64,000 nucleotides of DNA from the IMG/VR virus record IMGVR_UViG_3300036823_000324, positions 1 to 64,000 of that record; one strand, 5' to 3'. The DNA is from a virus. Below the pieces are notes generated by a model. That model was given only the letters and a program-made list of their open reading frames with translations. It had not been told where the DNA came from and did no database searches. Position 1 is the stretch's first letter. Every line of letters starts with the position of its first letter. Below are positions 4,114-34,308 of the stretch, one piece after another. A program made the translations under genes and the position numbers.

Positions 4114-4936
4114 CGTCGACCGGGATCTCGGTCGAGGCCGAGTCTACGGGCTCCTCGGTCGCCTCCCCGTCGACGACCACGGCGGCGTGCAGCGCGGCGG
4201 CACCGGCGAGCACGTCCGCGGCCTTCTCGGCCGGCAGCTCCATCAGTTTACGCAGGAGGTCGACCTTGTCGGGCTCGGTGGGGACTGCCTCGCCGCTGCG
4301 GGGGTCGAAGCTGCCGTGCAGCTCGACGCTGAAGTTGCGGTTGGTCTGGTCGACCTTCTGCTCGATCCGGTCCGGCGCCGCCTCGTAGCCTTCGAGGCCG
4401 AGCTTCGATTTCATGTCGAGGGAGGTGTTGGCGGCGTTCATCAGCTGGTCCTGCGCCTGCAGCGTCGTCGGCTGCACCATCCCCATCTCGGCGTCCTGGG
4501 AGAGCGCCCGGGCGAGGTTCATTTCGGCGGCCCGCACGCCGGCTTCGGCGACGTCGAGCTCGAACGGGATCGCCTTCGGCGCGGGGAAACGGCGCCCGAT
4601 CTGGTCCTCGAGGTCCTCGGAGAGGCCGAATCCCGCCATCGCCTCGGGCATGAACTTCTTGCGGTATTCGTCGATCAGGGCGGGAGTCAGCTGCAGTTTC
4701 TCGTGGGCCGTGAAGAGCTCGTGCCTGGTCTCGATCTCGTCGCCGTCGTCGTTGATCTCGGGGGCGCCCTCGAGCGGGTATACCTCCTCGAGCCACAACG
4801 AGATCCAGCTCGCCGACTTGCCGCGCCGCAGCAGCGCCTCGATCTTGTCCCGGTCGGGGTGGTGGCCGATCTTCGAGCGCTCGCGTGCCTCGTCGACCTC
4901 GGACTCCGGCTGATCTCGGACGACGACGTCGGTCAC
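3929..4936 (-). CDS. Possible small-terminase-like or structural-regulatory protein
   Basis: 335 residues from a GTG with no visible ribosome site. An N-terminal helix-turn-helix-like segment (HPDRDKIEALLRRGKSASWI, then LEEVYP) resembles the DNA-binding part of phage small terminases; residues 75-255 are helical, coiled-coil-like and charged. The last 60 residues, overlapping the next gene, are Pro/Gly/Glu-rich and may be read-through rather than functional sequence. Without the large terminase in view the identification is weak. The gene follows a perfect 11-bp inverted repeat. Confidence 0.4.
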   Translation of the reverse strand: MTDVVVRDQPESEVDEARERSKIGHHPDRDKIEALLRRGKSASWISLWLEEVYPLEGAPEINDDGDEIETRHELFTAHEKLQLTPALIDEYRKKFMPEAMAGFGLSEDLEDQIGRRFPAPKAIPFELDVAEAGVRAAEMNLARALSQDAEMGMVQPTTLQAQDQLMNAANTSLDMKSKLGLEGYEAAPDRIEQKVDQTNRNFSVELHGSFDPRSGEAVPTEPDKVDLLRKLMELPAEKAADVLAGAAALHAAVVVDGEATEEPVDSASTEIPVDDEFDEPEERADPGGTDPDRAGLGDLGGDPGRPAAGDAEPGLEEAPQGREPGTERDPGAADQ

Positions 4937-6923: not shown

Positions 6924-7031
6924 CACCGGCCCGAGTTCATAGGGGTTGATCAGCCCGGGCGGGAGATCGCCTTCGACGGTCGGGGGTCCTGGGGCCACTC
7001 CCATACCCTACACCCCTCTAGAACCACTAAA

Positions 7032-7228: not shown

Positions 7229-7438
7229 TCAGGCGAGGGCTTTTTCCTCCGCGGCGAGGACCTCGAACTGGCGCTCCACGGCCTCGACACGTGCCCGGTG
7301 GGGGGCGAGTGACTCCTCGGTCGGGTTGTCGCCCGCCTCGGCGACCTTCAGGTCGAGCTCGGCGGCGTACTGTTCGTGCTCGAGCGTCCCGCGCCGCGCC
7401 TTGATCTTCGCCAGCTTCTCCTCTTTGGTCAGGCTCAC
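7229..7438 (-). CDS. Small coiled-coil protein
   Basis: 69 residues from GTG 7438 (SLTKEEKLAKIKARR...). The longer frame upstream crosses a terminator and is not used. Almost wholly helical with heptad-like charge pattern and a conserved-looking DNPTEESLAPHRARVEAVE segment. No family recognised. Confidence 0.55.
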   Translation of the reverse strand: MSLTKEEKLAKIKARRGTLEHEQYAAELDLKVAEAGDNPTEESLAPHRARVEAVERQFEVLAAEEKALA

Positions 7439-7840: not shown

Positions 7841-8620
7841 TTAGCGCGGGTGTGGTCGAAATCTCAAGATGGTGGAGCCGACATGGTCGGCGGTCATCGG
7901 GATCTCGTAGGTCTCGTCATTGCGGAAGCCGGCCTTGTGCGCCTCCGCCACGAGGTCCGCGGCGCTCATCTCGTGGTAGCGCACGGTCTCGGTCGAGAAG
8001 CGCAGCCAGTCGCGGCGCCGGCGGGTGATGTCGACGACGCCGCGCGGCCCGCCGGCGCGCATCTGGGCGCCTGAGCGCGTGGATGCGATGACCTGGCTGG
8101 CGAAGCGCAGGCCCTGGCGGTCGGGCTTCGGCCGGTGCGCCGGGTGGGCGACGATCGCCTCGCTCAGGTCCTCGTGGATCGAGGCGTAGAAGACCCCGTC
8201 GGCCTTCAACGATTCGGCGACAGCGTGGAAAATCCGCTCGCGGTCGCCCCTCGCGAAGAGCTGCATGAACTGAGCCGGGGCGATGGCGACATCGAAGCGG
8301 CGGATCCCCGCGGCGCCGGAGTGGAGGCTGCGCGCGTCGTCGACGATCGGTCGAAGACGGACGGTCCCGCCGTGGCGCCCGCGCAACTCGTCCATCAGCT
8401 CCGGGTCGCTGTCGACGGCGGTGACGAAGAGGCCCTGATCGAGGAAGAGCTCGGTCAGGCGCCCCGTGCCGGCGCCGAGCTCGAGGACCAGGCTTCCCTC
8501 CTCCCACTTCGCCGCGGTCTCGCGCCAGAAGAGCTCGTCGGGCTGATCGCGGTTTTCGAGGTCGTGGAAGGCGGCGGCTGGTTTTGTTCCAGCTTGGACA
8601 GAAAGGAGCGGCGGGGTCAC
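7841..8620 (-). CDS. Class I SAM-dependent methyltransferase
   Basis: 259 residues. Motif I VLELGAGTGRL (about 44-54) and the acidic motif II end VDSDPELMDEL (about 68-78) define the Rossmann SAM site; FDVAIAPAQFMQLF is the motif IV strand and there is a strand-rich C-terminus. No DPPY/SPPY or DNA-methylase motif is present, so the substrate may be a small molecule, RNA or modified base. GTG start overlaps the stop of the Cys-rich gene upstream (GTGA), so the two are coupled and may act together. Confidence 0.85.
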   Translation of the reverse strand: MTPPLLSVQAGTKPAAAFHDLENRDQPDELFWRETAAKWEEGSLVLELGAGTGRLTELFLDQGLFVTAVDSDPELMDELRGRHGGTVRLRPIVDDARSLHSGAAGIRRFDVAIAPAQFMQLFARGDRERIFHAVAESLKADGVFYASIHEDLSEAIVAHPAHRPKPDRQGLRFASQVIASTRSGAQMRAGGPRGVVDITRRRRDWLRFSTETVRYHEMSAADLVAEAHKAGFRNDETYEIPMTADHVGSTILRFRPHPR

Positions 8621-9996
8621 TGTTTCTTCCTCCTGAAGGGGTCGTTTTTGGCTCTACGAGTACGTTTACGGTTTTGTCCCTTTTTGGACAAAACCTCGCC
8701 CTTCCCCAGCACCCGGTCGGCGAGACGCGGATACGCTTCGAGGTTGTGGGCGAAGACGTCTCCCTTCGTCCACCCGGCCGGCGCCGACACCTTCTCAGGG
8801 TTGAGGGTGAAGAAGGCGGCGCCCGCGGCGGCGACCACGTTCGAGAACATGATCTTCCGGTCTTCGTCGAAGACGCCGAGCAGCTTCGCCGACATCTTCA
8901 TCCGCAGCATCGTCGTCGTCCCGAAGTGCAGCCACCTGACATCGTCGGGGTAGAACTCGCGGGCGCGCCGGTGGTCGCGGATCGCCTCGGGGATCATGCC
9001 GCCGCGGCTGCCGTGGGTCTGCGTCGAGAAGGCGACCAGCTTGCAGCCGGCGCGGGCGACGAAGTCGTAGCACTCCTGGGTGAGCCAGTCGGCCTGGAAA
9101 CCGGGGTGTTGGAAGACGTTGTACTTGAAGCCCGCCGCGCAGGTGTCGAGGTACCAGTCCATGATCCGCGCCACGTTCAGCAGCGCCATCGCGTTCTGGA
9201 GGTCGGGGTAGGTCGAGAACTGCGGCCCGATCATCCCCTCGACGCCTTCCGCCAGCAGCCACGGGAAAAACTCCTCGCGGGCGTCCCAGCACTTCTCGAG
9301 GGCGTCGTCGAGCACCTGGCCGTGGACGAAGACGATCGTGTCGGGCCCGACGCCGAGCCGCTCGCGGAGGTTCAGCCGCGGCCCCGGTTTGCGTTTCTTT
9401 TTCTTCTGGCCCTCCATCACCTGCCAGGCGAAGTCGGCACCCGTGCACACGATGGGCGGCATGTTCTTCAAAGCACCCATCCACGTCCCAACTTTCTTGC
9501 CCGTCTTCTTGTCGACGTCGTCCATGTTGTGCCGGATCACCGGGAACCAGCTGACATCGAACGGGAGCTCGGCCGCGGCGCCGGCCTCGAGGTGCTCGAT
9601 CCGCTCGTCGGGGAAGTCGGGGTTGGCCCACTGGTCGAGGCGGAGGGTGGGGAATTCGCCCTCCGGGCCGATCCACGAGTCGAGCGTCCAGCTGCGCTTC
9701 TGCCCGCAGATCGCGACCGTTTCGGCGCGGGTGCCGCCGCCGCAGATGTCACAGCCGTTGTCGCAGCTGTTCACCACGCAGGCGAAGATCCGGTTGCCCT
9801 TGTTGCGGCAGCCCGGGCAGCTTTCCTCCACATACATCGGGCAGACGTGCTGGTCATCGCCCCATCCGGTTCCGCAGGCGATTTTGTTCTTGAGGGGTGT
9901 CCCCCAGCGGTCCTTGCCGTCGCGGCCGTCGGTGAAGAAGCTGCATTTCTCGACGACCTGGTCGCCTGATCCGAACCTATTACTACGACCCGTCAC
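8617..9996 (-). CDS. Cys-rich protein with barrel-like domain, DUF4417-like
   Basis: 459 residues from GTG 9996; the longer frame lies inside the two genes upstream. The first 75 residues hold several CxxC pairs (CPMYVEESCPGC, CDNGCDIC) as zinc or Fe-S ribbons. Residues 235-400 contain MIGPQFSTYPDLQN, YNVFQHPGF and LVAFSTQTHG, a pattern like DUF4417 and TGT-like barrels (weak resemblance). It ends in a Lys/Arg-rich tail. Coupled to the SAM methyltransferase. A nucleic-acid or nucleotide modification role is a hypothesis. Function otherwise unknown. Confidence 0.5.
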   Translation of the reverse strand: MTGRSNRFGSGDQVVEKCSFFTDGRDGKDRWGTPLKNKIACGTGWGDDQHVCPMYVEESCPGCRNKGNRIFACVVNSCDNGCDICGGGTRAETVAICGQKRSWTLDSWIGPEGEFPTLRLDQWANPDFPDERIEHLEAGAAAELPFDVSWFPVIRHNMDDVDKKTGKKVGTWMGALKNMPPIVCTGADFAWQVMEGQKKKKRKPGPRLNLRERLGVGPDTIVFVHGQVLDDALEKCWDAREEFFPWLLAEGVEGMIGPQFSTYPDLQNAMALLNVARIMDWYLDTCAAGFKYNVFQHPGFQADWLTQECYDFVARAGCKLVAFSTQTHGSRGGMIPEAIRDHRRAREFYPDDVRWLHFGTTTMLRMKMSAKLLGVFDEDRKIMFSNVVAAAGAAFFTLNPEKVSAPAGWTKGDVFAHNLEAYPRLADRVLGKGEVLSKKGQNRKRTRRAKNDPFRRKKQ

Positions 9997-10013
9997 GCGA
10001 CTTCCGGCCCGAC

Positions 10014-11132: not shown

Positions 11133-11885
11133 TCAGGCCTCCACGGTCTCGATGTCGCGGGCGGCCATCTCGGCGCGCTCCTGCTTCTCGAGCGCCAGCC
11201 GTTCGGCGACGTACTCGGCGCTCCGTTGCGCTTCGTCGCGGATGGTGTCACCGCCCAGATAGCCCCAGCAGGACTCCTCGAACGGCGTCCCCCGGGCGAC
11301 GATGTAGCCGTAGACTTCGCCGCGCAGATACTGGTCGTAGACCTCGACCTCGACCTCGATCGCCTCGGTCAACCGCTCCGACATCGGCTTCTCGGTCGGC
11401 GAGACCTCCCATCTCTCCTCGGTGATGATCGCGAAGCCGCAGAAGCTGGTGTCCCAGCCGGCGCCGTCGCCCGCGAACCGGCCGCGCGAGTCGGTGTCCA
11501 CCCGCTTCAACTCCTGCTCGCCGATCACCGTGATGTCCCCCACCTTGATCGAGAGGATGGAGTGGTCGTGGAGGAACAGCGGGGCGACCGCCAGCGCTTT
11601 CCTCTCGACCAGCCATTCCGACAGGAAAGGATCGACCGTGCCGGTCGCGCCGCATCGGATGCAGTCGTCTTCCTGGTCGCCGACGACGCAGGCGCCATGG
11701 CACGTCGGGCACTCGATTTCCGGGAGGCCGGACTCCTCCAGCTGGTGATCGCCGAGGGTGTAGCCCCGCGAGTAGATGTAGAGCTCGGTGTAGTTGCCGT
11801 CGAATTGGCGCGGGTTCGAGCTTTCCATGTCCTCATCGACCAGGATCTCGATCTCGACGCCTTCGTGTTCGTACATTTCGTTCAC
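11133..11885 (-). CDS. DnaJ-type zinc-finger protein
   Basis: 250 residues from GTG 11885, preceded by GAAAGGGGACACCC. Residues 58-82 hold CPTCHGACVVGDQEDDCIRC, the CxxCxG pair of DnaJ-like zinc domains. The rest is α/β with repeated strand segments (ILSIKVGDITVIGEQEL, VEVEVYDQYLRGEVYGYIVA) and a helical charged C-terminus. Similar proteins occur in actinophages without assigned function. Confidence 0.6.
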   Translation of the reverse strand: MNEMYEHEGVEIEILVDEDMESSNPRQFDGNYTELYIYSRGYTLGDHQLEESGLPEIECPTCHGACVVGDQEDDCIRCGATGTVDPFLSEWLVERKALAVAPLFLHDHSILSIKVGDITVIGEQELKRVDTDSRGRFAGDGAGWDTSFCGFAIITEERWEVSPTEKPMSERLTEAIEVEVEVYDQYLRGEVYGYIVARGTPFEESCWGYLGGDTIRDEAQRSAEYVAERLALEKQERAEMAARDIETVEA

Positions 11886-11911
11886 GGGTGTCCCCTTTCG
11901 GTTGGTACCTA

Positions 11912-12691
11912 TTACTTTCCGCTGCCCGACGTCTTGCCTCGATGCCGCTTCGGCGTGTATTTGGCAGTGGTGTGTTTCTGTGACCCCCAGCCGGAGGTCT
12001 TGAACTGCTGGATGTCCACGAACCCGCGCCCCTCCTGGCGGATCCCGTCGAGCCAGTCCTCGAGCTCATCCAGGCCCTCATCGGTGCAGAAGGCGTCGAG
12101 CATCACGATGTCGAGTTCGACGATCCGCTCCGGGGCCGCCATGAATTCGACGAGCTCCATCTGGGCCTTCCTGAACCGCTCGGCGGTCTTCAGGCTGTGG
12201 CCGGTCAGCTTCGCCAGCAGCTCCGCCGACGTCGCCTTCAGGCCGATCGTCAGCTGCAGGCGGTCGGCTTCCTGGAGCATCTCTGCCTCGAATCGCTCGA
12301 CCTGGGCCGGCTTCAGGATCGTCCCGTTCGTCTCGATCACGAGGAACGGTTCCTCGTCGCCGTCGGGAAGGGTGCCCTCGGTCTGCTCGACGAACTTCTG
12401 CGCGACCAGGCGCATGTGGCCGTCCCAGTTCAGGGTCGGCTCGCCGCCACTGACCCGCGCCATGCTGACGTGGTTGCGGTCGAGGCCGCGGACGATCCGC
12501 TTCACGACCTCGTCGGAATCGAGCTCGTAGGTCGGATCCTGGCCCTTCCACCCCATCTGGCTCCAGCAGTTGTCGCAGGCCCAGTTGCAGTTCTGCACGT
12601 CGACCGTGAAGCAGCCGCCATAGAACCGCGCCTTGCGGAACCGCTTGTAGGGCGCCAGGTCGGCGCCTTTGTAGTCCCTTGCTCCGGGCAC
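11912..12691 (-). CDS. Radical SAM enzyme, activase/QueE-like
   Basis: 259 residues from GTG 12691 (TAGTG overlap); the longer frame overlaps two upstream genes. CNWACDNC at 35-42 is the canonical CxxxCxxC 4Fe-4S motif, VSGGEPTLNW the GGEP SAM-binding motif, and VIETNGT a conserved strand of this superfamily. No extra cysteine cluster for a second Fe-S centre. Size fits activating enzymes or QueE-type deazaguanine synthases; without neighbours such as QueC, QueD or DpdA the substrate cannot be assigned. Confidence 0.85.
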   Translation of the reverse strand: MPGARDYKGADLAPYKRFRKARFYGGCFTVDVQNCNWACDNCWSQMGWKGQDPTYELDSDEVVKRIVRGLDRNHVSMARVSGGEPTLNWDGHMRLVAQKFVEQTEGTLPDGDEEPFLVIETNGTILKPAQVERFEAEMLQEADRLQLTIGLKATSAELLAKLTGHSLKTAERFRKAQMELVEFMAAPERIVELDIVMLDAFCTDEGLDELEDWLDGIRQEGRGFVDIQQFKTSGWGSQKHTTAKYTPKRHRGKTSGSGK

Positions 12692-13361: not shown

Positions 13362-13385
13362 CTCCGTCTCCTTTCGTCGTCAGAA

Positions 13386-13430
13386 CAAAAGCGGCCCGAG
13401 CGTCCCCACCCATGCGCGGACACCCGGGCC
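13386..13430 (-). terminator. Terminator upstream of the ASCH gene
   Basis: GGCCCG/CGGGCC plus the inner GTCC/GGAC pair form a bulged stem; on the minus strand it is followed by GCTTTTGTT. It lies between the gene ending at 13549 and the ASCH ribosome site. Confidence 0.65.
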
Positions 13431-13479
13431 ACTCTTCGCCGCACCCTCTGCTGGGTGGCGCGGCGAGGGCTGGCGCCCC

Positions 13480-13510
13480 GTCGACGGGATCCCAGTCCGA
13501 TCCCGTCGAC
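13480..13510. repeat. Perfect 12-bp inverted repeat
   Basis: GTCGACGGGATC and its exact complement with a 7-nt loop. No T-tract on either side. Together with the terminator it fills the 187-bp gap 13362-13548; the AT-rich stretch near 13540-13555 (TAGTAAAATAGAGG on minus) might be a -10 region. Confidence 0.65.
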
Positions 13511-13548
13511 GCGACACCTCACCACCTCCACTACTTCCCTCTATTTTA

Positions 13549-14562: not shown

Positions 14563-14823
14563 TCAGCCGGCAGTGCCGAGCAGCTGCATCGCCCGGTGGT
14601 AGTGCTGATCGCCCTTCGCGGCGGCGTAGGCGGCCTCGAAGCTGCGCTGGTAGAGATCCACGTCGCCGCGCCGGACCGCCTCGTCGTAGCACTGGCGCGC
14701 TCGGGCATCGGCGGACGAGAAAGTCGGGGACTGGTTGGCCCGGTCGATCTGCTCGAACACCTCCCGGGTGAGGTCCTCGTCAGTGAGCGCCTCGAGATGC
14801 GCCGCGTAGTTCTGCTCGTCCAT
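14563..14823 (-). CDS. Unrecognised helical protein
   Basis: 86 residues from ATG 14823 after GAAAGGAGATCACG. Helical with TDEDLTREVFEQIDRANQ and ARQCYDEAVRRGDVDLYQRS, a TPR-like spacing but only one unit. It overlaps the preceding gene by 44 bp. Confidence 0.55.
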   Translation of the reverse strand: MDEQNYAAHLEALTDEDLTREVFEQIDRANQSPTFSSADARARQCYDEAVRRGDVDLYQRSFEAAYAAAKGDQHYHRAMQLLGTAG

Positions 14824-15052
14824 CGTGATCTCCTTTCGTTCCCTCCGCCTCCTCGATGTCGGCGGAGATGTCATCGGTGGCGTCCGCCAGGTCGTCGGCG
14901 AACTCGGTGATTCCGTGCTGCATTTCCGCGAGCCGCTCATCGTGAGGCTGCTGCTCGATGCGGAGCGCCGCGCGCCGCAGGGTCTTCTCGGCCGTTTCCA
15001 ATTCCGTGCGGGTCACGCGGCAGAGCAAGGCGAAATGGTGGGGAGTGATCAT
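14780..15052 (-). CDS. Unrecognised coiled-coil protein
   Basis: 90 residues from ATG 15052, after AAGGTGGGTCC. Residues 10-75 are an amphipathic helix (TELETAEKTLRRAALRIEQQ). First gene downstream of the promoter-like element at 15073-15100, so it probably heads a transcript. Confidence 0.55.
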   Translation of the reverse strand: MITPHHFALLCRVTRTELETAEKTLRRAALRIEQQPHDERLAEMQHGITEFADDLADATDDISADIEEAEGTKGDHDGRAELRGASRGAH

Positions 15053-15072
15053 GGACCCACCTTACGCCGGGA

Positions 15073-15100
15073 CCTATAACCCCCTTTCGTTGCCGACTTC
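15073..15100 (-). promoter_or_regulatory. Repeated promoter-like element, copy 1
   Basis: On the minus strand GAAGTCG, 14 nt, TTATAGG; the next gene start lies about 20 nt further on. The TTATAG also provides the Leu-stop of the upstream gene. Same spacing as the copies at 18.9, 21.8 and 23.7 kb. Confidence 0.55.
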
Positions 15101-15343
15101 CCGGAGGTCCTCCTCGGCTCGATCGAGGAGGTTGATCAGGTCCCAGCAGTCGGCGGCGCGGCCGGCGTTCATGCACGCTTCCTGGAGGTGCCCGTGCCGG
15201 CCGGCGATCTCCCGGCAGGCGGCGAACCGTCCCTCCTGCGCATAAAGCAGCAGCTCCTCGGCGTCGTGCTCGCTCTCGAACCGGATCTGCGTGAGCCCGT
15301 CGTGCTCGGCTATTTCGGTCATGACCATAATTGCCTCGGCCAT
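15074..15343 (-). CDS. Unrecognised α/β protein
   Basis: 89 residues from ATG 15343; ATG 15328 or 15322 are possible and the latter two have a nearby GAGG. Pattern: IRFESEHDAEELLLYAQEGR, then a Cys-containing helical end. Its final codons overlap the promoter-like element (GGG TTA TAG). Confidence 0.5.
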   Translation of the reverse strand: MAEAIMVMTEIAEHDGLTQIRFESEHDAEELLLYAQEGRFAACREIAGRHGHLQEACMNAGRAADCWDLINLLDRAEEDLREVGNERGL

Positions 15344-15345
15344 GG

Positions 15346-15636
15346 TTATAGGTTCACCCGGATCGTGAACCCTGACACCGGCGAGGCGGCCGCGTCCTTC
15401 GGTTCGTCGAGCCATACCCGAGCCTGCGCCGCGACGTTGGCGAGCACGTCGCTCAGCAGATGCCCCTCGGCGTAGGCGATACGGCCGTCACCTTCCGACT
15501 CCTCGGCCAGCACGTCGGGGATCACCTCGTCGAGGTAGACGGGGAAGCACTCGGCCTTGAAGAAATGGCCCGACGCTTCCCGCTGCTCCCGGGCCGCCTT
15601 CCGGGTCGACTCTGCGTCTCGGTGGTCGATGTTCAT
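15346..15636 (-). CDS. Unrecognised small protein
   Basis: 96 residues from ATG 15636 (ATGA overlap). Basic start, then an acidic middle (YLDEVIPDVLAEESEGDG) and a strand-rich end (ASPVSGFTIRVNL). No family recognised. Confidence 0.55.
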   Translation of the reverse strand: MNIDHRDAESTRKAAREQREASGHFFKAECFPVYLDEVIPDVLAEESEGDGRIAYAEGHLLSDVLANVAAQARVWLDEPKDAAASPVSGFTIRVNL

Positions 15637-15824
15637 GGGGTCACCGATCCCCACACGCGATTTGCCTCGAGGACGAGGGCATCGTCGCCCGGTGAGTCGC
15701 CGATCGAGTTGGTCAGGTCGTCGACCAACAGCGCGACGGTCAAGCCGTCGACCGCCTCGTCGGGATAGTCGACCCCGTATTCGGTCAGCCGCTCGAGAAG
15801 CTCGACGGCTTGTGCGTCCTCCAT
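15633..15824 (-). CDS. Unrecognised 63-residue protein
   Basis: ATG 15824 in TGATG overlap. Acidic helical protein (AVELLERLTEYGVDYPDEAV). No family recognised. Confidence 0.55.
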   Translation of the reverse strand: MEDAQAVELLERLTEYGVDYPDEAVDGLTVALLVDDLTNSIGDSPGDDALVLEANRVWGSVTP

Positions 15825-16018
15825 CAGGCGGCCGCCAGCTCGTCCTGTGCCTCGATGTACTCCTCAAGGCCTTCGCAGATCAGGCTCCCCATCGCGCTCC
15901 GCTGCTCGGGCTTCCCCATCGGGAAGCCGTCGATCGCCTCGATGACCTTCGCGCACATGCTGTAGGCCATCTCGGTGCCGATCTCGCCGGCCCGTTCCTC
16001 TGCTGCCTTCGGGTCCAT
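15824..16018 (-). CDS. Unrecognised 64-residue helical protein
   Basis: ATG 16018 after GAAAGGGGCACC. Two helices with two cysteines (YSMCAKVIEAIDG, SLICEGLEEYIEAQDEL). It starts just after the terminator that closes the collagen-like gene, so it begins a new transcript. Confidence 0.55.
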   Translation of the reverse strand: MDPKAAEERAGEIGTEMAYSMCAKVIEAIDGFPMGKPEQRSAMGSLICEGLEEYIEAQDELAAA

Positions 16019-16072
16019 GGTGCCCCTTTCGTAGGCCTGTCTCGTCGGTGCGCGGCGGCCAACCCGGCGCAG

Positions 16073-16094
16073 ACGCGGGCCCGGAGGCCCGCGT
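16073..16094 (-). terminator. Terminator-like hairpin after the collagen-like gene
   Basis: ACGCGGGCC and GGCCCGCGT with a 4-nt loop, starting 6 nt beyond the stop. The stem is perfect (9 bp) but no T-run follows on the minus strand. Confidence 0.55.
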
Positions 16095-16099
16095 TTCGA

Positions 16100-17206
16100 C
16101 TATTCGGTCGAGATCACCCGAGCGGCGATCTGGCTTTCGCCGATGAACCATTCGCCCGGGGTTTCGTCGAGCCGGAAGGTCGATGTCTTCTCACCGAACC
16201 ACTGGCTGTCCCAGTAGACGGCGCCGCCCGATTCGACGGGGTTCTGCCCGATCGTCGGCGGACCCTCCACCGCGACGTTCAGCGAGTCGAGCGCCGTCGT
16301 GGTGGGCGTGAACCCGACGGCGACGATCGCCTTGTGGGGGATCTTGCCGGTGAGGTCGAACTTCACCGTCTGCGGGAGCCCGTGCTGGCAGTGGCCGTCC
16401 GAGGCCTTGAACGAGGTGCCATCGGGGCAGGTCAGGTCGGTCGTCGGCCGGTAATGCAGATCGAACGTCTGCGTCTCCGTGGCCAGCAGCTGCCCCACCG
16501 CGTTTTCGTAGGTGACTTCGTACACGTTCAACGTCAGGGGCGCGGCGAACGTCGCCGAGGGATCCACGGTGACGCAGGTCGCTTCGCCGCCGCTCTCGCA
16601 CGACCACACCGACATCAGCACTTCGACTTCGGGATCGGTGGTGCCACCTTCCTTGGCGAGGACGATCTGGGAGCCGAACTGCGTCGTCCCCGTGGCCGCA
16701 TAACCGAGGCTGGGCGGGTTGGCGATCCGCGATTCCGGCGTGATGTTGTCGTAGACGAGCGGGTTGGTCGGCGCCGGCGGACCAGGGGGGCCGGCCGGGC
16801 CGGCGGGACCCTGCGGACCGGCGCCGCCCGGGCTGCCGGGAGCACCGGGGTTGCCCTGGGGTCCGGTCGCTCCGGGAGCACCCGGGGCGCCGTTGGCTCC
16901 CTGGGACCCGGTCGCGCCGGGGGAGCCCTGCGGGCCTTCGGGGCCGCTCGTCCCCTGAACGCCCTGTTCGCCCGTGTCGCCCTTCTGGCCGGCCGCTCCG
17001 GGGCTTCCTGGCGTGCCCGGGGACCCCGCGGCCCCTGCGGGCCCCTGCGGGCCACGGGCCACGTGGGCCTTCACGCACTGCCTGCCGCTCCTGTGCTTGC
17101 CGTGCGGGCACTTCTTCGGGTGGTGCTTCTGAGTCGCGACTGCGACTGCGGGGAGGGCGAGGGCGGCGATCGCCGCGACCAGCCAGATCATTAGTTTCCG
17201 TCTCAT
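16100..17206 (-). CDS. Secreted collagen-like protein
   Basis: 368 residues. A signal peptide ([20 protein letters not shown], cleavage near AVA) is followed by a basic segment [12 protein letters not shown], then about 31 uninterrupted Gly-X-Y triplets (residues 52-145) and a 220-residue β-rich globular domain with two disulfide-like Cys pairs. The triple helix would trimerise the C-terminal domain outside the cell. Phage fibres contain Gly-X-Y repeats but not Sec signals, so this looks like a host-derived gene expressed from the phage. It sits among small early-type genes with its own hairpin after it, as for a moron. Role unknown; surface modification or adhesion are guesses. Confidence 0.8.
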
Positions 17207-17249
17207 GGGTGTGTGTGGTCCTTTCTCGTTTGGTTGGTGTGGAGGAAGA

Positions 17250-17573
17250 TCAGCTGGCCTTGACGCCTGTGTTGGCGGCGAACGCCTCGGCGAGCGCCTC
17301 GGCGAGCTTGTCGATCACGAGATCGAGGCGAGCACCCCCGCAGGCGGTCCACAGGCCGCCTTTCTCGTTCTTGCCGATCACGTCGTGGAGGTCGGGGAAC
17401 GATCCGGTGCTGACGTTGAATTGGAAGATGAAGCTGACGATCGGCTCCATCTGGTCGGGGTAGGCGAACGAGATCCGGCCGGTGTTGGTGTACCGTTGGT
17501 CGACCACCAGCTGGACCTTGAAGTCCTCGGCCATCTCCTGCAGGCGCCCGATGAACTTCTCCTGGGTGTTCAT
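17250..17573 (-). CDS. Unrecognised α/β protein
   Basis: 107 residues from ATG 17573 (ATGA overlap). [20 protein letters not shown] helix, then strands with [20 protein letters not shown], a Cys-containing loop (WTACGGARL) and a C-terminal helix. The fold looks like an α+β domain; no family recognised. Confidence 0.6.
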
Positions 17574-17857
17574 CGGCAGGCCCGGATCCGCGGTTGTACC
17601 GCACGAGCGCCCCGAAGGCGCCGCCGCGGGCGGGAGGTGAATTCGTCCTGGTAGCTGAACCGCGACCCCTGTGGGACCCGGCTCAGCGGCAGCCCATAGT
17701 GCCGTTGCCACCGGTGCTCCTCCTCGAAGAGCTCGCGGCGCGTCTCTTCTTCGTGGTGGCGCCAGGCCTGGATGCCGCGGCACTGCCCGTGGCTGCAGGT
17801 CCACGTGCGTTCCATGTATCGACTGCCGCCGTGGGAGGTGTCATTGCAGAACGTCAT
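17570..17857 (-). CDS. Unrecognised Cys/His basic protein
   Basis: 95 residues. TFCNDTSHGG and TWTCSHGQCRG give a possible CxxxH/CxHxxC metal site; the rest is His/Arg/Glu-rich. ATGA overlaps on both ends. Confidence 0.5.
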   Translation of the reverse strand: MTFCNDTSHGGSRYMERTWTCSHGQCRGIQAWRHHEEETRRELFEEEHRWQRHYGLPLSRVPQGSRFSYQDEFTSRPRRRLRGARAVQPRIRACR

Positions 17858-18882
17858 CCCGTCGCCTCCGGATCGTTGTCGACCATGGCCACCGAGCCCT
17901 CGACGACGCCCACGATCCTCAACTCGGCTTCAGCTGCGGAGATCACGCTCTCTTCGGCGTCCTCGACGCTCTCGGCTTCGACCGATTCGGCGAACCCCTG
18001 GCCGCCCTCGGCATAGATGGCGATCACGGTGAACACGCGGGATTCCTTTTCCCTCTGTTCCTGATCGGCTTCGGCGTCGACCTGGGCGAGGGTCTTCTCG
18101 CCCAGCAGCACTTCGATCCGCCGGCGGATCACCGGTGAGCCTTCCTGCAGGTGCCCGAGCAGGGCGTCGAATTCGGCGCGCTTCATGTGGAGGTCGGCCC
18201 CCATCGTCCGGCAGACCAACTCGTCGTCGAGCTGCGCGGTGGCAGACGGCACCGTCGTCATGGCGTCTTCGTGCGCCTCACCCAACACCCCGTAGGGCGT
18301 CGCCTCCTCGGTGGTCTCGATCGGCTGGAAGTCCTCGGCGCTGCAGTTGCCGCATTTCCACCCGGCCCCGTCGACCTCCCGCACGTCTTCGCTCCCGCAC
18401 TCCGGGCAGAGCATCACGTGGGGAGCTTCCGGCGGCGATGCGAACCCGAGCCGGAGGGGGATCGCCAGCCGCAGATCGTCGGCCGAGTTGACCGGCTTCA
18501 GCTGGCCGTCGTAGTGCTCGTTGGGCGCGGTCGAGAAGAAATCGGTCGGCTCCACGATCAGGCAGGCCTCGCCATCGACATCCTCGGGGCCCCAGACCAG
18601 CAGCCGCGCCGCGATCGGGTTGCCGTCGGTGTCGAAAACCTTGTCGACGATGCTCTCCTCCCTGCCGTCGCCGAGTTGATCGACACGGAGGGTCTGGGTG
18701 CTGGGCCGCATGTTGTCATCCCACTGCGCCCCGGCCTCCGCACCGAAGGTGCCGGCGAAGCTGTAGACCTCGCCGTCCTCACATCTGTTCTTGCCGTCGG
18801 GGTCGTCGAAGTTTGCCCCCCAGGTGTTGCCATATACGTCTCGGTCGGTATCGACCAACGTCTGGACCAGGAACTGGGTCAC
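17854..18882 (-). CDS. Zinc-ribbon protein of unknown function
   Basis: 342 residues from GTG 18882 after AAAGGAGAACCT. The first half is strand-rich and acidic; residues about 158-182 form a zinc ribbon (MLCPECGSEDVREVDGAGWK then CGNC). The C-terminal 100 residues are helical, then a β-α segment (SRVFTVIAIYAEGGQGFAES). Preceded by the promoter-like element copy 2. Confidence 0.6.
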   Translation of the reverse strand: MTQFLVQTLVDTDRDVYGNTWGANFDDPDGKNRCEDGEVYSFAGTFGAEAGAQWDDNMRPSTQTLRVDQLGDGREESIVDKVFDTDGNPIAARLLVWGPEDVDGEACLIVEPTDFFSTAPNEHYDGQLKPVNSADDLRLAIPLRLGFASPPEAPHVMLCPECGSEDVREVDGAGWKCGNCSAEDFQPIETTEEATPYGVLGEAHEDAMTTVPSATAQLDDELVCRTMGADLHMKRAEFDALLGHLQEGSPVIRRRIEVLLGEKTLAQVDAEADQEQREKESRVFTVIAIYAEGGQGFAESVEAESVEDAEESVISAAEAELRIVGVVEGSVAMVDNDPEATG

Positions 18883-18920
18883 AGGTTCTCCTTTCGTGTT
18901 ACCGATTCACAACTACATGA

Positions 18921-18963
18921 CACTCTACGAATCCTCCTATAACTCCCCTCCTTGTTCGACTTT
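18921..18963 (-). promoter_or_regulatory. Repeated promoter-like element, copy 2
   Basis: Minus strand AAAGTCG, 14 nt, TTATAGG, then CGTAGAGTG. The TTATAG is the Leu-stop of the gene at 18937-19125, and the ribosome site of the 342-residue gene lies about 30 nt beyond. Confidence 0.6.
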
Positions 18964-19125
18964 CTGCCCGAATTCGTCGGGCTCGACTTTCGCCGGATCG
19001 GAGTCGATCGCCATCCAGCCCATGCCGGACTTCTCGACCGTGTTGGCGAGGTCGCGTGCGTTCTCGACCGCCTCGGTAGGTGAGTCGGCTTCGACGTTCA
19101 CCCAGGCCGGCACCAGGAACCTCAT
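18937..19125 (-). CDS. Unrecognised 62-residue protein
   Basis: β-α-β unit (RFLVPAWVNVEADSPTEAVE, ARDLANTVEKSG, MGWMAIDSD), like the single-domain proteins in this region. ATGA overlap with the upstream gene; its last two codons are inside the promoter-like element. Confidence 0.6.
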   Translation of the reverse strand: MRFLVPAWVNVEADSPTEAVENARDLANTVEKSGMGWMAIDSDPAKVEPDEFGQKVEQGGEL

Positions 19126-19667
19126 CCAGTCCTCCTTCTCGTGGTGTCAAGGTCGATGCCGAGGCTGTCATCCAGAGCCTCCCACCGCACCTGTTCGCCA
19201 TCGGTCTCTTCGGCCACGGCGTTGAGCTGCGAGAAGTAGTCCCGCAGGGTCAGCGACACTCGCTCGCGCCGGGTGTCTCCCGGGTCCAGGAGGATGTCGG
19301 CCTGTTCGGCGATCCCGGCAGCGATCGCGTTCAGGAAGCGGGCAAGGTTGGGGCCATACTGGGCGTCGACGGCCTCCATCAGCCGCTCCTCGAGGGCGTT
19401 CTTGTAGTCGATCAGTGAGTCGACGCCGCTCTCCTCGCCGTCGGAGCCGTCGCTGTACTTCATGGCCTCCTGCATTTCCGCGATGGTCTGTTCGCCCGGA
19501 GAGAAGTCGGGGCGTGCCGCCAGGGAGAGGTCGACCTTGCCGATCTCGATCTTCGCCGCGGCTGCGGCGCGCCACTCCTCCTGTGCCTCGGCAGAGAGCG
19601 CCGGCCACTCGACACCCTCGTTGGCGGCGAGGGCTTGCGCGATGAGGTACTCGACCACGGAGCTCAT
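19122..19667 (-). CDS. Unrecognised helical protein
   Basis: 181 residues from ATG 19667 (ATGA overlap with the regulator gene). All-helical: VEYLIAQALAANEGVEWPAL near the start and several amphipathic helices after. It is translationally coupled to the winged-helix regulator, which may hint at a partner role. Confidence 0.6.
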   Translation of the reverse strand: MSSVVEYLIAQALAANEGVEWPALSAEAQEEWRAAAAAKIEIGKVDLSLAARPDFSPGEQTIAEMQEAMKYSDGSDGEESGVDSLIDYKNALEERLMEAVDAQYGPNLARFLNAIAAGIAEQADILLDPGDTRRERVSLTLRDYFSQLNAVAEETDGEQVRWEALDDSLGIDLDTTRRRTG

Positions 19668-20092
19668 ACGACCGCCTCCGCCAGACGCAGTGCCGGTTTG
19701 ACACGCCAATAGTGCTTGGTCGAGTTGATCTCCCGGGCCTCCTCGTTCACGAGTTCGACGATGCCGAGCTTCTCGAGCCGCTTGAAGTGGTAGCTGACGG
19801 TGCTCAGGCCGACGCCGGTGATGTCGGCGACTTCGGTCGGCGCCACCTCTCCCTCCCCTTGCACGACGGCGACGAGCAAGGAGGAGAACAGCGCCTCCGA
19901 CAACACCCTCTCGGCGATCGCCCGCCAGGTCGTGCCGCCCGTCAGCAGCCCCGTCGCGCACGATCCGCAGAGGTAGACCCCGTCCTCCTCCTCGAGCGTC
20001 GACACCCGGAGGTGTCCGGGTCCGAAGGTCGAGCAGGCGGAGCAGTGCGTTTCGCCCCCCTCCTCGACCAGCAGCAGTTCTTCGATGTTCAC
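19664..20092 (-). CDS. Zinc-binding winged-helix transcription regulator, ArsR-like
   Basis: 142 residues. N-terminal zinc knuckles CSACSTFG and CGSCATG; residues 60-142 form a winged helix with recognition helix VGLSTVSYHFKRLEKLGIVE and wing KHYWRVKPAL, the ArsR/'HTH_20' pattern. Ribosome site AAAGGAGA upstream. Tandem and inverted CTGTTTCC sites lie directly upstream of the start, implying autoregulation. It divides the small-gene region and could act as an early switch. Confidence 0.75.
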   Translation of the reverse strand: MNIEELLLVEEGGETHCSACSTFGPGHLRVSTLEEEDGVYLCGSCATGLLTGGTTWRAIAERVLSEALFSSLLVAVVQGEGEVAPTEVADITGVGLSTVSYHFKRLEKLGIVELVNEEAREINSTKHYWRVKPALRLAEAVV

Positions 20093-20108
20093 TTCGGTCT
20101 CCTTTCGT

Positions 20109-20137
20109 CTGTTTCCCTGTTTCCAAATCGGAAACAG
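20109..20137. promoter_or_regulatory. Operator candidate: three CTGTTTCC half-sites
   Basis: CTGTTTCC occurs at 20109-20116 and 20117-20124 in direct repeat and as its complement GGAAACAG at 20130-20137, leaving a 5-nt spacer in the dyad. The cluster is AT-richer than its surroundings and ends 17 nt from the regulator's start. Confidence 0.7.
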
Positions 20138-20138
20138 T

Positions 20139-20369
20139 TCAGTAACGCGCCCACCAGCGGACGGTGCGGACGGCCATGATCACCCCGAAGGACAGGGGCG
20201 CCCAGCCCCATTCCTGGCCCGCCGACAGCGCCAGCCCGCCGAGCATCAGCAGTAGCGCGGCGAGGGCGAGGAACCCGCCGGCGCCCATCTCGCTCATCCC
20301 GATCGGCTGCCGCGGCGGCCGCGTCAGCAGCGCCGCAAGGACCACGAGGGTCACGATGGCCAAGATCAT
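20139..20369 (-). CDS. Small membrane protein, two to three TM helices
   Basis: 76 residues. Hydrophobic segments at 1-16 (ILAIVTLVVLAALLT), 28-48 (GGFLALAALLLMLGGLALSA) and possibly 55-67. Coupled (ATGA) to another small membrane gene. The pair could be a holin/spanin-like set, but no lysis gene lies next to it. Confidence 0.65.
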   Translation of the reverse strand: MILAIVTLVVLAALLTRPPRQPIGMSEMGAGGFLALAALLLMLGGLALSAGQEWGWAPLSFGVIMAVRTVRWWARY

Positions 20370-20527
20370 CGTCCGCTCCCTTCTCTCGCGACGGGCTGCA
20401 GCAACTGCGCGTGACCCGCCTCATATTCACCTTCGACATCGAAGCCACCGGCGATCGCCAGCAACATCAGCATCACCGCCAGCACCGCGACTCCCAGCAC
20501 GATCTCCCCACGCTTCGTGAGTGTCAT
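20366..20527 (-). CDS. Small single-TM protein
   Basis: 53 residues from ATG 20527. One helix (IVLGVAVLAVMLMLLAIAGG, residues 9-28) after a basic start, then an acidic outer tail: N-in topology by the positive-inside rule. Overlaps both neighbours by 4 bp. Confidence 0.65.
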   Translation of the reverse strand: MTLTKRGEIVLGVAVLAVMLMLLAIAGGFDVEGEYEAGHAQLLQPVAREGSGR

Positions 20528-20721
20528 CTCAGGTCAATCCTTTCGACTGGACCGACGCCGATCTCATCGGCGTGGTGTTTGCACATCTCCGTCTTGATCC
20601 CGACCTGCAGCGTCTTACACCTACAGGTCACCTCCTGCACCGCTCCATACACGATCTTCCCCATCTGCACTTCGAGGAGGCAGAACTCGCAGGCACGCCG
20701 CGGCCACTCCCAGGCGGGCAT
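20524..20721 (-). CDS. Small Cys-rich protein
   Basis: 65 residues, CEFC, CRC and MCKHH give five cysteines and two His, likely one or two zinc sites. ATGA-type overlap to the TM gene. Confidence 0.6.
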   Translation of the reverse strand: MPAWEWPRRACEFCLLEVQMGKIVYGAVQEVTCRCKTLQVGIKTEMCKHHADEIGVGPVERIDLR

Positions 20722-21047
20722 CAGCGGGCCTCGGTCTTAGCATGCGCCATCGCCATGCGGACCAGGCCGTCCACGTCGTAGCCGCGCTGGATCGCGATGA
20801 TCAACTCGTCGGCGACGATGTCGATCATCATCGGCCGGCAGTGGTGGCGGGAGCCGACCTCCTTGCCGCAGGACTCGCAGGTGCGGCTGGCCGCCGGTGG
20901 GGTCGCTTGGTCGAAGTCGAGCAGGATCTCATTGCAGTCCGTGCACTCCACGGCGATGTTTTCCTTGCCGCCATAGGTGACGCACTCGATGTCATGCCCG
21001 ATGTGACGGAAGAGATCGTCGGTGCTGTGCGCGCCCATGTCACTCAC
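20721..21047 (-). CDS. Zinc-binding protein of unknown function
   Basis: 108 residues from GTG 21047. VECTDCNEI and CESCGKEVGSRHHC make a Cys4 ribbon with a short loop. A helical C-terminus follows. The start overlaps the preceding gene by 8 bp. Confidence 0.6.
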   Translation of the reverse strand: MSDMGAHSTDDLFRHIGHDIECVTYGGKENIAVECTDCNEILLDFDQATPPAASRTCESCGKEVGSRHHCRPMMIDIVADELIIAIQRGYDVDGLVRMAMAHAKTEAR

Positions 21048-21747
21048 TCAACTGTGGGACGACGCGCCGCGCGAACGCCTCTACAGCGGCGCGCGCCTCG
21101 CCCGAGAACTCGTAATCGGCCGTGCCCGACCAGCTATAGCGGTAGCACACCCGCCGAATTTCGTAGGACAGTTCCCGCTCGTAGCCGCTGGGGACCGTCG
21201 CCGGCGACCCGTGCTGCTCGACATCGCACTCGATCAGGATCCGGCTGTCGGGCCCACCGACGCCGAGCACGATTTCAAAGGTCACCGTCGATTCGACCGC
21301 TAGCGGCCACCCGTCCATGACCCGTTCCGCGGCCTCGGCGAGGTCCTGGGGATCTTCGTCGAGGATGTTGCCGATCCCCAGCAGCCCCTCGATCTTCTCG
21401 CTGGAGCCGACTTCGTTGACGTCCTCCCGGTCGGTCGCCTGTGAGAGCGCCATCAGGAGGGCGATGTCGGCCGCGTCCCCGACCGCGGCCTCGGCGACGT
21501 GCAACTCCGGCACGGTCTGCGGGTTCTCCATCTCGTAGGGCGACGCGATCCGCTTCCGGTAGACGTCCAGCTGGTCTTCGGCGATCGTCGGGCCCGCGTA
21601 CCCGTGTAGTTCGCTGTCGGAGCCGAACTCCTCGCGGATGCGAGCGTCGACGCGATTCGTGATCTGGCCCGCGGCGTCGTCGTGGTTGCCGCTGTCGCCG
21701 GTAAGGGTGAACTCGGCGGTGATCCGGTGAATGCTTTGTGCTGGCAC
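21040..21747 (-). CDS. Unrecognised α/β protein
   Basis: 235 residues from GTG 21747 after GAAAGGAGAAGCC; a start further upstream is inside the leader. The C-terminal half has long strands (ESTVTFEIVLGVGG, SRILIECDV, RRVCYRYSWSGTADYEFSG) suggesting a β-sandwich. It heads a transcript from promoter-like element copy 3. No family recognised. Confidence 0.6.
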   Translation of the reverse strand: MPAQSIHRITAEFTLTGDSGNHDDAAGQITNRVDARIREEFGSDSELHGYAGPTIAEDQLDVYRKRIASPYEMENPQTVPELHVAEAAVGDAADIALLMALSQATDREDVNEVGSSEKIEGLLGIGNILDEDPQDLAEAAERVMDGWPLAVESTVTFEIVLGVGGPDSRILIECDVEQHGSPATVPSGYERELSYEIRRVCYRYSWSGTADYEFSGEARAAVEAFARRVVPQLSE

Positions 21748-21783
21748 GGCTTCTCCTTTCGCTTGCACTATTCGATCCTCTAC

Positions 21784-21827
21784 CACTCTACGATTACTCC
21801 TATAACCAACTCCGCTGCCCGACTTCT
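21784..21827 (-). promoter_or_regulatory. Repeated promoter-like element, copy 3
   Basis: Minus strand AGAAGTCG, 14 nt, TTATAGG, then CGTAGAGTG and AGGATCG. The next start is 37 nt downstream with an optimal ribosome site. Confidence 0.65.
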
Positions 21828-21831
21828 CGGC

Positions 21832-22170
21832 TCACTTGCTCGACCTCCACATGCGCAGCACATCCCCGGTCTTGAGCTCGAGCCACGGCTCGCCGTCGGG
21901 GTCGCGGAACGTGTGGTCCTGGGTGAGCACCTGCCGGCCGTCCCCGTAGAGCGGCACGTCGTCCCAGCCGAGGTAATAGATCGGCAGCGTGGCGAAGCTG
22001 ACGACCTGTCCACGTTGGCTCGCCTCGAACCAGGTGACGCCGTCGTCGTTCACGACCTCCGTCGGCCGGGACTCCGCGCACGCAGCGGTGAGCATCCCCC
22101 AGAGGTGCCTCTCGGTCCAGCCGAGCTTGACTTCCTCCTTCTCGCGCAGGATCTGGGTGTTCAGTGGCAT
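21832..22170 (-). CDS. Unrecognised β-rich protein
   Basis: 112 residues from ATG 22170 (TAATG overlap, GAGGAG ribosome site). Strands with VTWFEASQRGQVVSFATLP and WLELKTGDVLRMW. The C-terminal 'LKTGDVL' resembles the neighbouring 22170-22397 protein's 'LEPGDTL'. Last gene before copy 3 of the promoter-like element. Confidence 0.55.
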   Translation of the reverse strand: MPLNTQILREKEEVKLGWTERHLWGMLTAACAESRPTEVVNDDGVTWFEASQRGQVVSFATLPIYYLGWDDVPLYGDGRQVLTQDHTFRDPDGEPWLELKTGDVLRMWRSSK

Positions 22171-22397
22171 TACCGGGCTCCTCTCTTCAGCCGCTCGCAC
22201 TCAAGGTGGTTCGGCAGGATTTGCGTACTCGTGGTGACGCTGTGCCAGTCCAGCCCCAGCTTCACCTTCACGTCGTTATCGCCGATCGGCTCGACGGACC
22301 AGACCTTGTCGAAACCGCCCGCGACAGGCGCGGCGCCGACAAAGGTCAGGGTGTCGCCCGGCTCGAGCCTGAAGGCGTCTACCGTCTCGACAGCCAT
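22170..22397 (-). CDS. Unrecognised 75-residue β protein
   Basis: ATG 22397 in TGATG overlap (a GTG 3 nt upstream is also possible). FRLEPGDTLTFVGAAPV and NDVKVKLGLDWHS suggest a small β-barrel. No family recognised. Confidence 0.55.
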   Translation of the reverse strand: MAVETVDAFRLEPGDTLTFVGAAPVAGGFDKVWSVEPIGDNDVKVKLGLDWHSVTTSTQILPNHLECERLKRGAR

Positions 22398-22711
22398 CAC
22401 GCCACCTCGTGGGGAGTCAGCGAGGAGGACCCGAATGGCCGCTCCAAGGAGAAGCCGGTGATCTTGCCGGCCCGGACCAATGCCTCGGCCGCCGCCTCAT
22501 CGCCCTCGTAGCGCTCGCATTCGTCGCAGCGCTCGATCCAACGGCGGCAGCCGTCCTCGTTGGCCGCCGTCGGGAATCGCACCCCCGGGATCGACTCGGG
22601 GTGGTCGCGGCAGCCTTCGCAGTCGTTCAGTGCCATCTCGACGCGCTGCACGATGGTCCCGTTGGCGGGGTCGTTGTAGGCAGCGATCCGGTCTATCGCG
22701 TCGGACATCAT
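22397..22711 (-). CDS. Small Cys-rich protein
   Basis: 104 residues. CEGC, then DGCRRWIERCDECERYEG: five cysteines in zinc-like spacing with helical flanks. ATGA overlap upstream. Confidence 0.6.
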   Translation of the reverse strand: MMSDAIDRIAAYNDPANGTIVQRVEMALNDCEGCRDHPESIPGVRFPTAANEDGCRRWIERCDECERYEGDEAAAEALVRAGKITGFSLERPFGSSSLTPHEVA

Positions 22712-23025
22712 CGGTCCTTCCTGCAGCGCTCGGCGAAGTCCGCCAGCGCCGCGGTTTCGTCGAGGTCGTAGTGGCCCCAGAAGAGCTCAACCTCGCCCGT
22801 GTTCCGGTTGTGGCCCCAGCGGATCGTCACGTAGGGAGGGAAACCCTTGTCCAAGTCGACCTGCCGCAGCGCGGTGGCGATGCCTTCGACCTTGTGCTGG
22901 TCGGCGATCGGCGAGGTCACGGCGATCGCCGTGACCAGCCCGATGCGCTCGCGGACAGCCTGGGCGCCGGCCTCGACCGACAGCGGTCCCCGTTCGACAT
23001 AGGTGCCCCCGCGGTCGGCGCTCAT
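22708..23025 (-). CDS. Unrecognised α/β protein
   Basis: 105 residues from ATG 23025 (ATGA overlap). VTAIAVTSPIADQHKVEGIA, then PPYVTIRWGHNRNTGEVELF. The strand order recalls a small ferredoxin-like domain. No family recognised. Confidence 0.55.
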   Translation of the reverse strand: MSADRGGTYVERGPLSVEAGAQAVRERIGLVTAIAVTSPIADQHKVEGIATALRQVDLDKGFPPYVTIRWGHNRNTGEVELFWGHYDLDETAALADFAERCRKDR

Positions 23026-23168
23026 CGGACCACCCCCCGACCTATAACTGCCTCTCGGCGCTCGACTTCCTGCCTCATTCGCCGGAGCGACTCCCGCTCC
23101 CGCCGGCCGGAAGCGCGGCGGGGCTTGGGCTGGTTGGTCTGGAGCCACGCGGGCTTCTTGGCGGTCAC
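23022..23168 (-). CDS. 48-residue basic protein
   Basis: GTG 23168 (TAGTG overlap) to TGA 23022 (ATGA overlap). Very basic helix (ASGRRERESLRRMRQEVERR) after TAKKPAWLQTNQPKPRR. Too short for standard gene finders, but coupled on both sides. A promoter-like GAAGTCG-15 nt-TTATAGG lies inside it (23041-23069). Confidence 0.55.
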   Translation of the reverse strand: MTAKKPAWLQTNQPKPRRASGRRERESLRRMRQEVERREAVIGRGVVR

Positions 23169-23215
23169 TAGTACCGCACCTCCCCGTACGGTTCCTCTTG
23201 TGAGTCGATGCTCAT
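23168..23215 (-). CDS. 15-residue micro-ORF with strong ribosome site
   Basis: ATG 23215 preceded by GGAGGACACC; the peptide MSIDSQEEPYGEVRY ends in TAGTG at the start of the 48-residue gene. Either a real micropeptide or a leader that couples translation. Confidence 0.4.
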   Translation of the reverse strand: MSIDSQEEPYGEVRY

Positions 23216-23230
23216 GGTGTCCTCCTGCCA

Positions 23231-23251
23231 GCCCGGGCGCATGGCCCGGGC
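23231..23251 (-). repeat. Hairpin between small genes
   Basis: GCCCGGGC pairs with its complement over a 5-nt loop. No T-tract follows, so termination is uncertain. Confidence 0.45.
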
Positions 23252-23277
23252 CGGGTTCATGGGTGGTCGGTGGACTA

Positions 23278-23610
23278 CTAGGAGTTGACTTTGCGCGCGT
23301 CCGTTTCGCCCGCTTTGTGGGCCTTGGTCCCGGGTTTGCGCGGCTTCGCCTTCGGTTTCGCCGCCGCTTTGGCGCGCGTTTCGATGGTCGCGAGCGCCTG
23401 TTTGCCGTACACGGCGGCGCGGTTCAGGTCGGCACCGAGGTCCTCGAGCCACTCCTTGGTGTCTTTGCGGTACTGCTTCTGCTCGCTGAACGGGACGATC
23501 ACCGCGACCGCCTCGTCGATCTGGGCGTTGAAACCGTCCGCCAGGCCTTCGAGCTCAGCGACGATCTCACGGGCCTTGTCCAGCGCGCTGCTCTTGGTGC
23601 TGCTAGCCAT
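23278..23610 (-). CDS. Helical protein with basic tail
   Basis: 110 residues from ATG 23610 after AAAGGAGATGGCC. Residues 8-75 helical (KAREIVAELEGLADGFNAQI, EWLEDLGADLNRAA), then a Lys/Ala/Pro tail (KAAAKPKAKPRKPGTKAHK) typical of nucleic-acid binding. Similar in its helical part to the 10238-10651 protein. Expressed from promoter-like element copy 4 some 110 nt upstream. Confidence 0.6.
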   Translation of the reverse strand: MASSTKSSALDKAREIVAELEGLADGFNAQIDEAVAVIVPFSEQKQYRKDTKEWLEDLGADLNRAAVYGKQALATIETRAKAAAKPKAKPRKPGTKAHKAGETDARKVNS

Positions 23611-23714
23611 ATGGCCATCTCCTTTGCGATGCCCGCGGCTGCCGGCGGGCGCGGCTTGGAGCCCCAGCGGCTCCGGATCAGAGAGAACCTCTAATCCCCT
23701 CTCCGATCCCCTAC

Positions 23715-23758
23715 TACTCTACATATACACCTATAACTCTCTCCCTATTCCGACTTCT
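23715..23758 (-). promoter_or_regulatory. Repeated promoter-like element, copy 4
   Basis: Minus strand GGAGAAGTCG, 14 nt, TTATAGG, then GTAGAGTAGTAG and GGATCG. The 100-nt leader that follows contains two hairpins before the ribosome site at 23617-23624. Confidence 0.65.
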
Positions 23759-34238: not shown

Positions 34239-34308
34239 GTGTCCTCCCTCTATCCGATCCTCTAATCCTCTCGGAGGAGGCTACCAGATCCCCTCAAATA
34301 GCGGGGAT

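Follow-up and report, generated by a model that had tools for sequence, protein, structure and literature searches.

A repeated three-box element upstream of small genes in an orphan GC-rich myovirus as a possible family of co-regulated promoters

What kind of signal is carried by a two-box sequence, AAGTCG followed after 14 nt by TTATAGG, that recurs upstream of small genes in the IMG/VR virus record IMGVR_UViG_3300036823_000324? The window analysed here comprises 64,000 bases of this 75,084-base record, which has a G+C content of ~67%, encodes tail sheath and baseplate proteins and carries TerL at its other end; the virus, which infects bacteria, is an orphan myovirus whose genome is GC-rich. 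According to our own gene calls, made by a simple script, nearly all genes lie on the minus strand, with structural genes at ~34–75 kb and, at 0–34 kb, a mosaic region of small genes together with SbcC/SbcD-like, methyltransferase and radical-SAM genes. The answer that we tentatively favour is that the repeat marks co-regulated phage promoters for small-gene blocks, each with a host-type -10, no recognisable -35 and two boxes that would bind a trans-acting factor.

Searching the full record, we found exactly four copies of AAGTCG-N14-TTATAGG (A to D, in order of position), all on the minus strand and with TTATAGG at 15073, 18936, 21799 and 23730, in agreement with a preliminary description of this DNA, which had also correctly located two looser copies with a 15-nt gap (AAGTCG-N15-TWATAGG) at 23041 and, with TAATAGG, at 9976. 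AAGTCG is preceded by A in copy B and by G in the three other main copies. Four strict and six relaxed matches were obtained on the minus strand and none on the plus strand. When the 75,084-base record was simulated with order-1 and order-3 Markov models, neither strict nor relaxed matches appeared in 100 runs at each order. TTATAGG alone occurs six times on the minus strand, compared with 0.13–0.18 expected. A genome scan with a position weight matrix (PWM) gave 35–38 bits for the five best copies and 18 bits for the next site, the matrix having been built from these five copies themselves, which inflates their scores.

Alignment of copies A to D on TTATAGG showed that the full element, AAGTCG-N14-TTATAGG-N7-GTARRGT, consists of three boxes and spans 41 nt, and a repeat finder independently returned a 41-nt family with four copies. 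The only invariant blocks are AAGTCG, G-TTATAGG and GTA..GT, plus single scattered columns; the spacer between the first two boxes is purine-rich and identical among these copies at 5–8 of its 14 positions. GTAGAGT, already seen in three copies but placed at a loose distance of 7–10 nt, is the third box of B, C and D; its distance from TTATAGG is exactly 7 nt throughout, and copy A carries GTAAGGT in this place.

This third box fits the -10 pattern TANNNT at a fixed position, as TAGAGT three times and as TAAGGT once. The pattern is rare, with 45 occurrences on the minus strand and a frequency of 0.0006 per base genome-wide, rising to 0.0025 in the 60 nt that precede genes. It is found 6–8 nt before the start codon at 6 of 102 genes (3929–4936, 7229–7438, 14780–15052, 40897–41520, 54490–55119 and 73651–74706) against ~0.2 expected, an excess of about 30-fold, and this geometry, as far as sequence can tell, is the signature of leaderless host-type promoters. 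Since the TAAGGT of copy A is one of these six boxes, the third-box match is hard to dismiss, and a chance match in copy A is unlikely. Outside the element, GTARRGT occurs at 7011, 7223 and 33796, the first two in non-coding gaps. The hexamers 17 nt upstream of box 3 are purine-rich (GGAGAG, GAGGGG, GGAGTT) and unlike TTGACA, leaving no recognisable -35. The preliminary view that the sequence is not a normal housekeeping -35/-10 thus holds for AAGTCG and TTATAGG alone but not for the third box, whose TARRGT is a housekeeping-like -10 and makes TTATAGG more likely a regulator box than a -10.

In the promoter model that we tentatively favour, TARRGT would be read as a -10 by the main RNA polymerase of the host, while the -35 position would be flanked by AAGTCG at -47 to -42 on one side and by TTATAGG at -27 to -21 on the other. 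Boxes 1 and 2, ~20 bp or two helical turns apart from centre to centre, would lie on one face of the DNA, where a trans-acting factor, most likely an activator rather than a repressor, would probably be bound and replace the -35 contact. Setting +1 7 nt after TARRGT gives a purine start in A, C and D and predicts starts at 15052 (leaderless, at the A of ATG), ~18915, 21778 and 23709; the transcript of copy D so placed would start at its own first hairpin. A promoter family is supported by the rigid 14-nt and 7-nt spacers, the single strand, the location of each copy before a gene and the zero copies expected by chance. We regard it as unlikely, though, that the factor is of an unknown transcription-factor type, or a remodelled RNA polymerase, that reads AAGTCG and TTATAGG two turns apart in place of the -35 contact. 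Judging from gene content only, the promoters would probably be early. The first suggestion, a phage-specific promoter or regulator site, gains from the single strand, the gene starts, the rigid spacing and the absence of the element from all other records searched, while its "early or middle" timing comes only from gene content.

The copies occupy varied contexts on the minus strand. Copy A (GAAGTCG-N14-TTATAGG-N7-GTAAGGT, 15059–15100) has its TAAGGT 6 nt before the ATG of the gene at 14780–15052, and the TAG of its TTATAGG is the stop codon of an open reading frame (ORF) at 15074–15328. Copy B (AAAGTCG-N14-TTATAGG-N7-GTAGAGT, 18922–18963), upstream of the gene at 17854–18882 with the Shine-Dalgarno (SD) sequence AAAGGAG, supplies the stop codon of the ORF at 18937–19125 in the same way. 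Copies C (21785–21826) and D (23716–23757), both GAAGTCG-N14-TTATAGG-N7-GTAGAGT, are intergenic, begin 5–6 nt past an upstream stop codon and lie upstream of the genes at 21040–21747 (SD AAAGGAG) and 23278–23610, respectively. Copy E (GAAGTCG-N15-TTATAGG, 23041–23069) lacks the third box, GTGGTCC standing in its place; it lies 15 nt before the ATG of the gene at 22708–23025 and, in a different frame, inside a 48-aa ORF (23022–23168). The weak copy F (GAAGTCG-N15-TAATAGG, 9976–10004), also without a third box, overlaps the likely GTG start of the gene at 8617–9996, and the degenerate copy G (ACGTCG-N12-TAATAGG, 11908–11935) lies 22 nt before the GTG of the gene at 11133–11885; both fall in the PWM tail (18 bits and below). 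Since G and C have the 13-mer GTCGGGCAGCGGA in common, G may be a decayed copy. The label "intergenic" is therefore fully accurate for C and D but not for A and B, which share a stop codon with an upstream ORF, for E, within an ORF, or for F, over a likely gene start. Such contexts (stop codons, gaps, another frame) argue for a nucleic-acid signal and not a peptide, and a conserved peptide C-terminus is ruled out because the copies lie in differing frames or outside ORFs. Elsewhere on the minus strand, TTATAGG (73604) and CTATAGG (73630) stand 26 nt apart just before the gene at 72503–73591 in the terminase/portal region, with neither AAGTCG nor TARRGT.

Several observations weigh against the promoter model. 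Boxes 1 and 2 can occur without a -10, as copy E shows, and the TAAGGT of copy A is also readable as a ribosome site (AAGGTG, with normal spacing). Copies B, C and D may have arisen by duplication of a single sequence and would then not be fully independent; this would weaken the third-box statistics but leave copy A, and boxes 1 and 2 with their diverged flanks and spacers, unaffected. No relative in the collections searched carries the element. Promoters dependent on lambda CII, T4 MotA and P2 Ogr combine a normal -10 with a -35 that is replaced or flanked by boxes for the phage activator, CII using direct repeats and Ogr a dyad; the layout seen here is similar, but its two boxes, ~20 bp apart, are unrelated in sequence, and homology searches revealed no gene for a cognate activator.

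The regulator candidates encoded by the phage are an XRE-type helix-turn-helix (HTH) protein (2897–3328) and a winged-helix protein (19664–20092). Directly upstream of the winged-helix gene lies a palindrome, CTGTTTCC-N5-GGAAACAG (20116–20136), with an extra GGAAACAG half site, which is probably the gene's own operator. Since this palindrome is different from the repeat, the winged-helix protein is a weak candidate for it and more likely a self-regulator, which would leave the XRE-type protein as a candidate. Predicted structures of two possible winged-helix proteins had pLDDT values of 36 and 51, too poor to use. A further putative regulatory site, a perfect 12-bp inverted repeat (GGTGCTACACGG-CTA-CCGTGTAGCACC, 74707–74737 of the record), ends at the terminase start codon and has a TANNNT inside; it is a candidate operator or hairpin controlling late genes.

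It seems rather unlikely that the repeat is instead an alternative-sigma promoter, with AAGTCG as -35 and TTATAGG as -10, read by a host group 3/ECF-like or an unrecognised phage sigma factor. Group 3 sigma factors read two boxes 14 bp apart, 20 bp from start to start, and the element has this geometry. Transcription would then start at the G of GTARRGT (15065, 18928, 21791 and 23722), 13 nt from the starts of the TARRGT model, and GTARRGT would mark a conserved start of transcription; copy E would be workable without a third box, and copy A would gain a 13-nt leader with the SD-like AAGGTG. However, we know of no sigma consensus that matches the boxes, and such a promoter predicts neither the conservation of GTARRGT nor its likeness to the virus's other TANNNT boxes. 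A phage-encoded sigma factor is disfavoured since a PF04542 (sigma factor) search of the 75-kb record, which may be incomplete, gave no match at E<=1 and the 64 small-gene-region proteins scanned include no sigma family. Copy E, in which the two boxes are 15 nt apart and no -10 follows, fits a protein site better than a TARRGT-type promoter read by a sigma factor only.

Repression was the other possibility raised at the outset, and we consider it distinctly unlikely. A repressor bound to the two boxes would prevent the TARRGT promoters from initiating or, at the promoterless copies E and F, would block elongation, and the phage has the XRE-type HTH and winged-helix genes. Like the cluster A stoperators described in PMC9283540, the sites are repeated, phage-specific and asymmetric, have one orientation relative to transcription, lie at gene boundaries and include copies with and without a -10. 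Stoperators, however, are contiguous 13-bp sites (PMC3203893) bound by the immunity repressor, in contrast to three separated boxes that span 41 nt with 14-nt and 7-nt spacers. In addition, the winged-helix gene is preceded by its own unrelated palindrome, -35s for a repressor to cover are not recognisable, and we saw no gene for an integrase or for lysogeny in the Pfam and PHROG results, which do not cover every gene.

An RNA-level or translational signal (a processing site, a protein-binding leader element or a start-associated sequence) is very improbable. The purine-rich spacer, the copies near start codons and the strong hairpins after copy D would suit it, but the distance of boxes 1 and 2 from the start codon reaches 140 nt in D and 36 nt in E, the predicted leader folds of A to D are without a common structure, and there is no Rfam match at the element. 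Chance, or functionless duplication of intergenic stretches by recombination, is likewise very improbable, since despite the mosaic small-gene region and the 73% identity of C and D over 64 nt, only the boxes have stayed constant, whereas the sequences between and around them have diverged, and zero copies are expected by chance. Two more specific forms were ruled out: a T7-type promoter with TATAGG as start, because the spacer positions beside TATAGG are not conserved and box 1 would lie at -20 or beyond, and a palindromic operator, because boxes 1 and 2 are unrelated to each other.

Downstream of the element, the gene at 23278–23610 has a long leader (23611–23715, minus strand) in which two strong hairpins immediately follow the predicted start of copy D. 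The 15-mer TAGGGGATCGGAGAG (23699–23713, minus strand) includes this predicted +1 (23709) as well as the 5' arm of one of the leader hairpins. Members of the same 15-mer family are TAGAGGATCGAATAG (21768–21782, minus strand), just downstream of copy C and holding its predicted +1 (21778), and TAGAGGATCGGATAG (34250–34264, minus strand), in the gap between the structural and small genes and without boxes 1 and 2. TAGRGGATCGRANAG occurs downstream of both C and D and also in the gap at 34.2 kb (three matches compared with 0.02 expected). The small-gene region also holds, at 16031–16101 on the minus strand, in the gap after the collagen-like gene at 16100–17191, a type II hammerhead ribozyme match (Rfam RF02276, 42.5 bits, cutoff 37); since its core reads CCGACGA compared with CUGAUGA in the family, the ribozyme may be weak or inactive. 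A 187-nt gap at 13362–13548 (minus strand) folds into three strong hairpins (z -8.1; -110.8 kcal/mol over 199 nt), with a U-rich run after the last of them, TAAAAT upstream and no Rfam match; lying before an ASCH-like gene, it is a candidate for an attenuator or a phage non-coding RNA.

By layout and not by sequence, the closest precedent is the ESAS of cluster K mycobacteriophages (TM4, Adephagia, ZoeJ), a 46–47-bp conserved intergenic element with a putative promoter inside, present in seven copies in Adephagia (PMC3203893, PMC11373665). SAS/ESAS are located in the non-structural arm, where nearly all share one orientation, and may include the upstream stop codon. ESAS have imperfect inverted repeats of 17 bp, separated by a short spacer, and SigA-like -35/-10 hexamers 17–18 bp apart. 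The element described here likewise is repeated and promoter-like, is intergenic in some copies, lies in the non-structural region in one orientation and overlaps stop codons in other copies. Its boxes do not form inverted repeats, however: CGACTTC, the reverse complement of box 1, agrees with TTATAGG at 1/7 positions, and the direct orientation at 2/7. Nor is the SAS GGGATAGGAGCCC, 3–9 bp before the start codon, found in leaders A to E, where A has GTAAGGTGGGTCC and B and C have CGAAAGGAGAA, and TANNNT is present without the recognisable -35 of the SigA-like pair. The element is therefore not an ESAS, although it may work like one.

Searches for the pattern GAAGTCG-N13/14-GTTATAGG gave 60 IMG/VR contigs with one occurrence each, apparently in coding sequence, and the three-box pattern had no match in IMG/VR. 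A 101-nt query spanning copy C found nothing in a phage collection, and no close kin were detected in IMG/VR and INPHARED through tail sheath, TerL, portal, tail tube, capsid or small-gene proteins. DUF5131 compared with GTDB genomes reached ~30% identity and gave no clue to the host, and the literature on TTATAGG yielded no phage element of this kind.

If the promoter model is true, the repeat would give the promoter grammar of an orphan GC-rich myovirus, making a single regulon of small genes whose functions are unknown, and would predict transcript starts to a single base. It would also represent, beside ESAS and stoperators, a further solution by which phages of high-GC hosts coordinate their non-structural genes without an RNA polymerase of their own.

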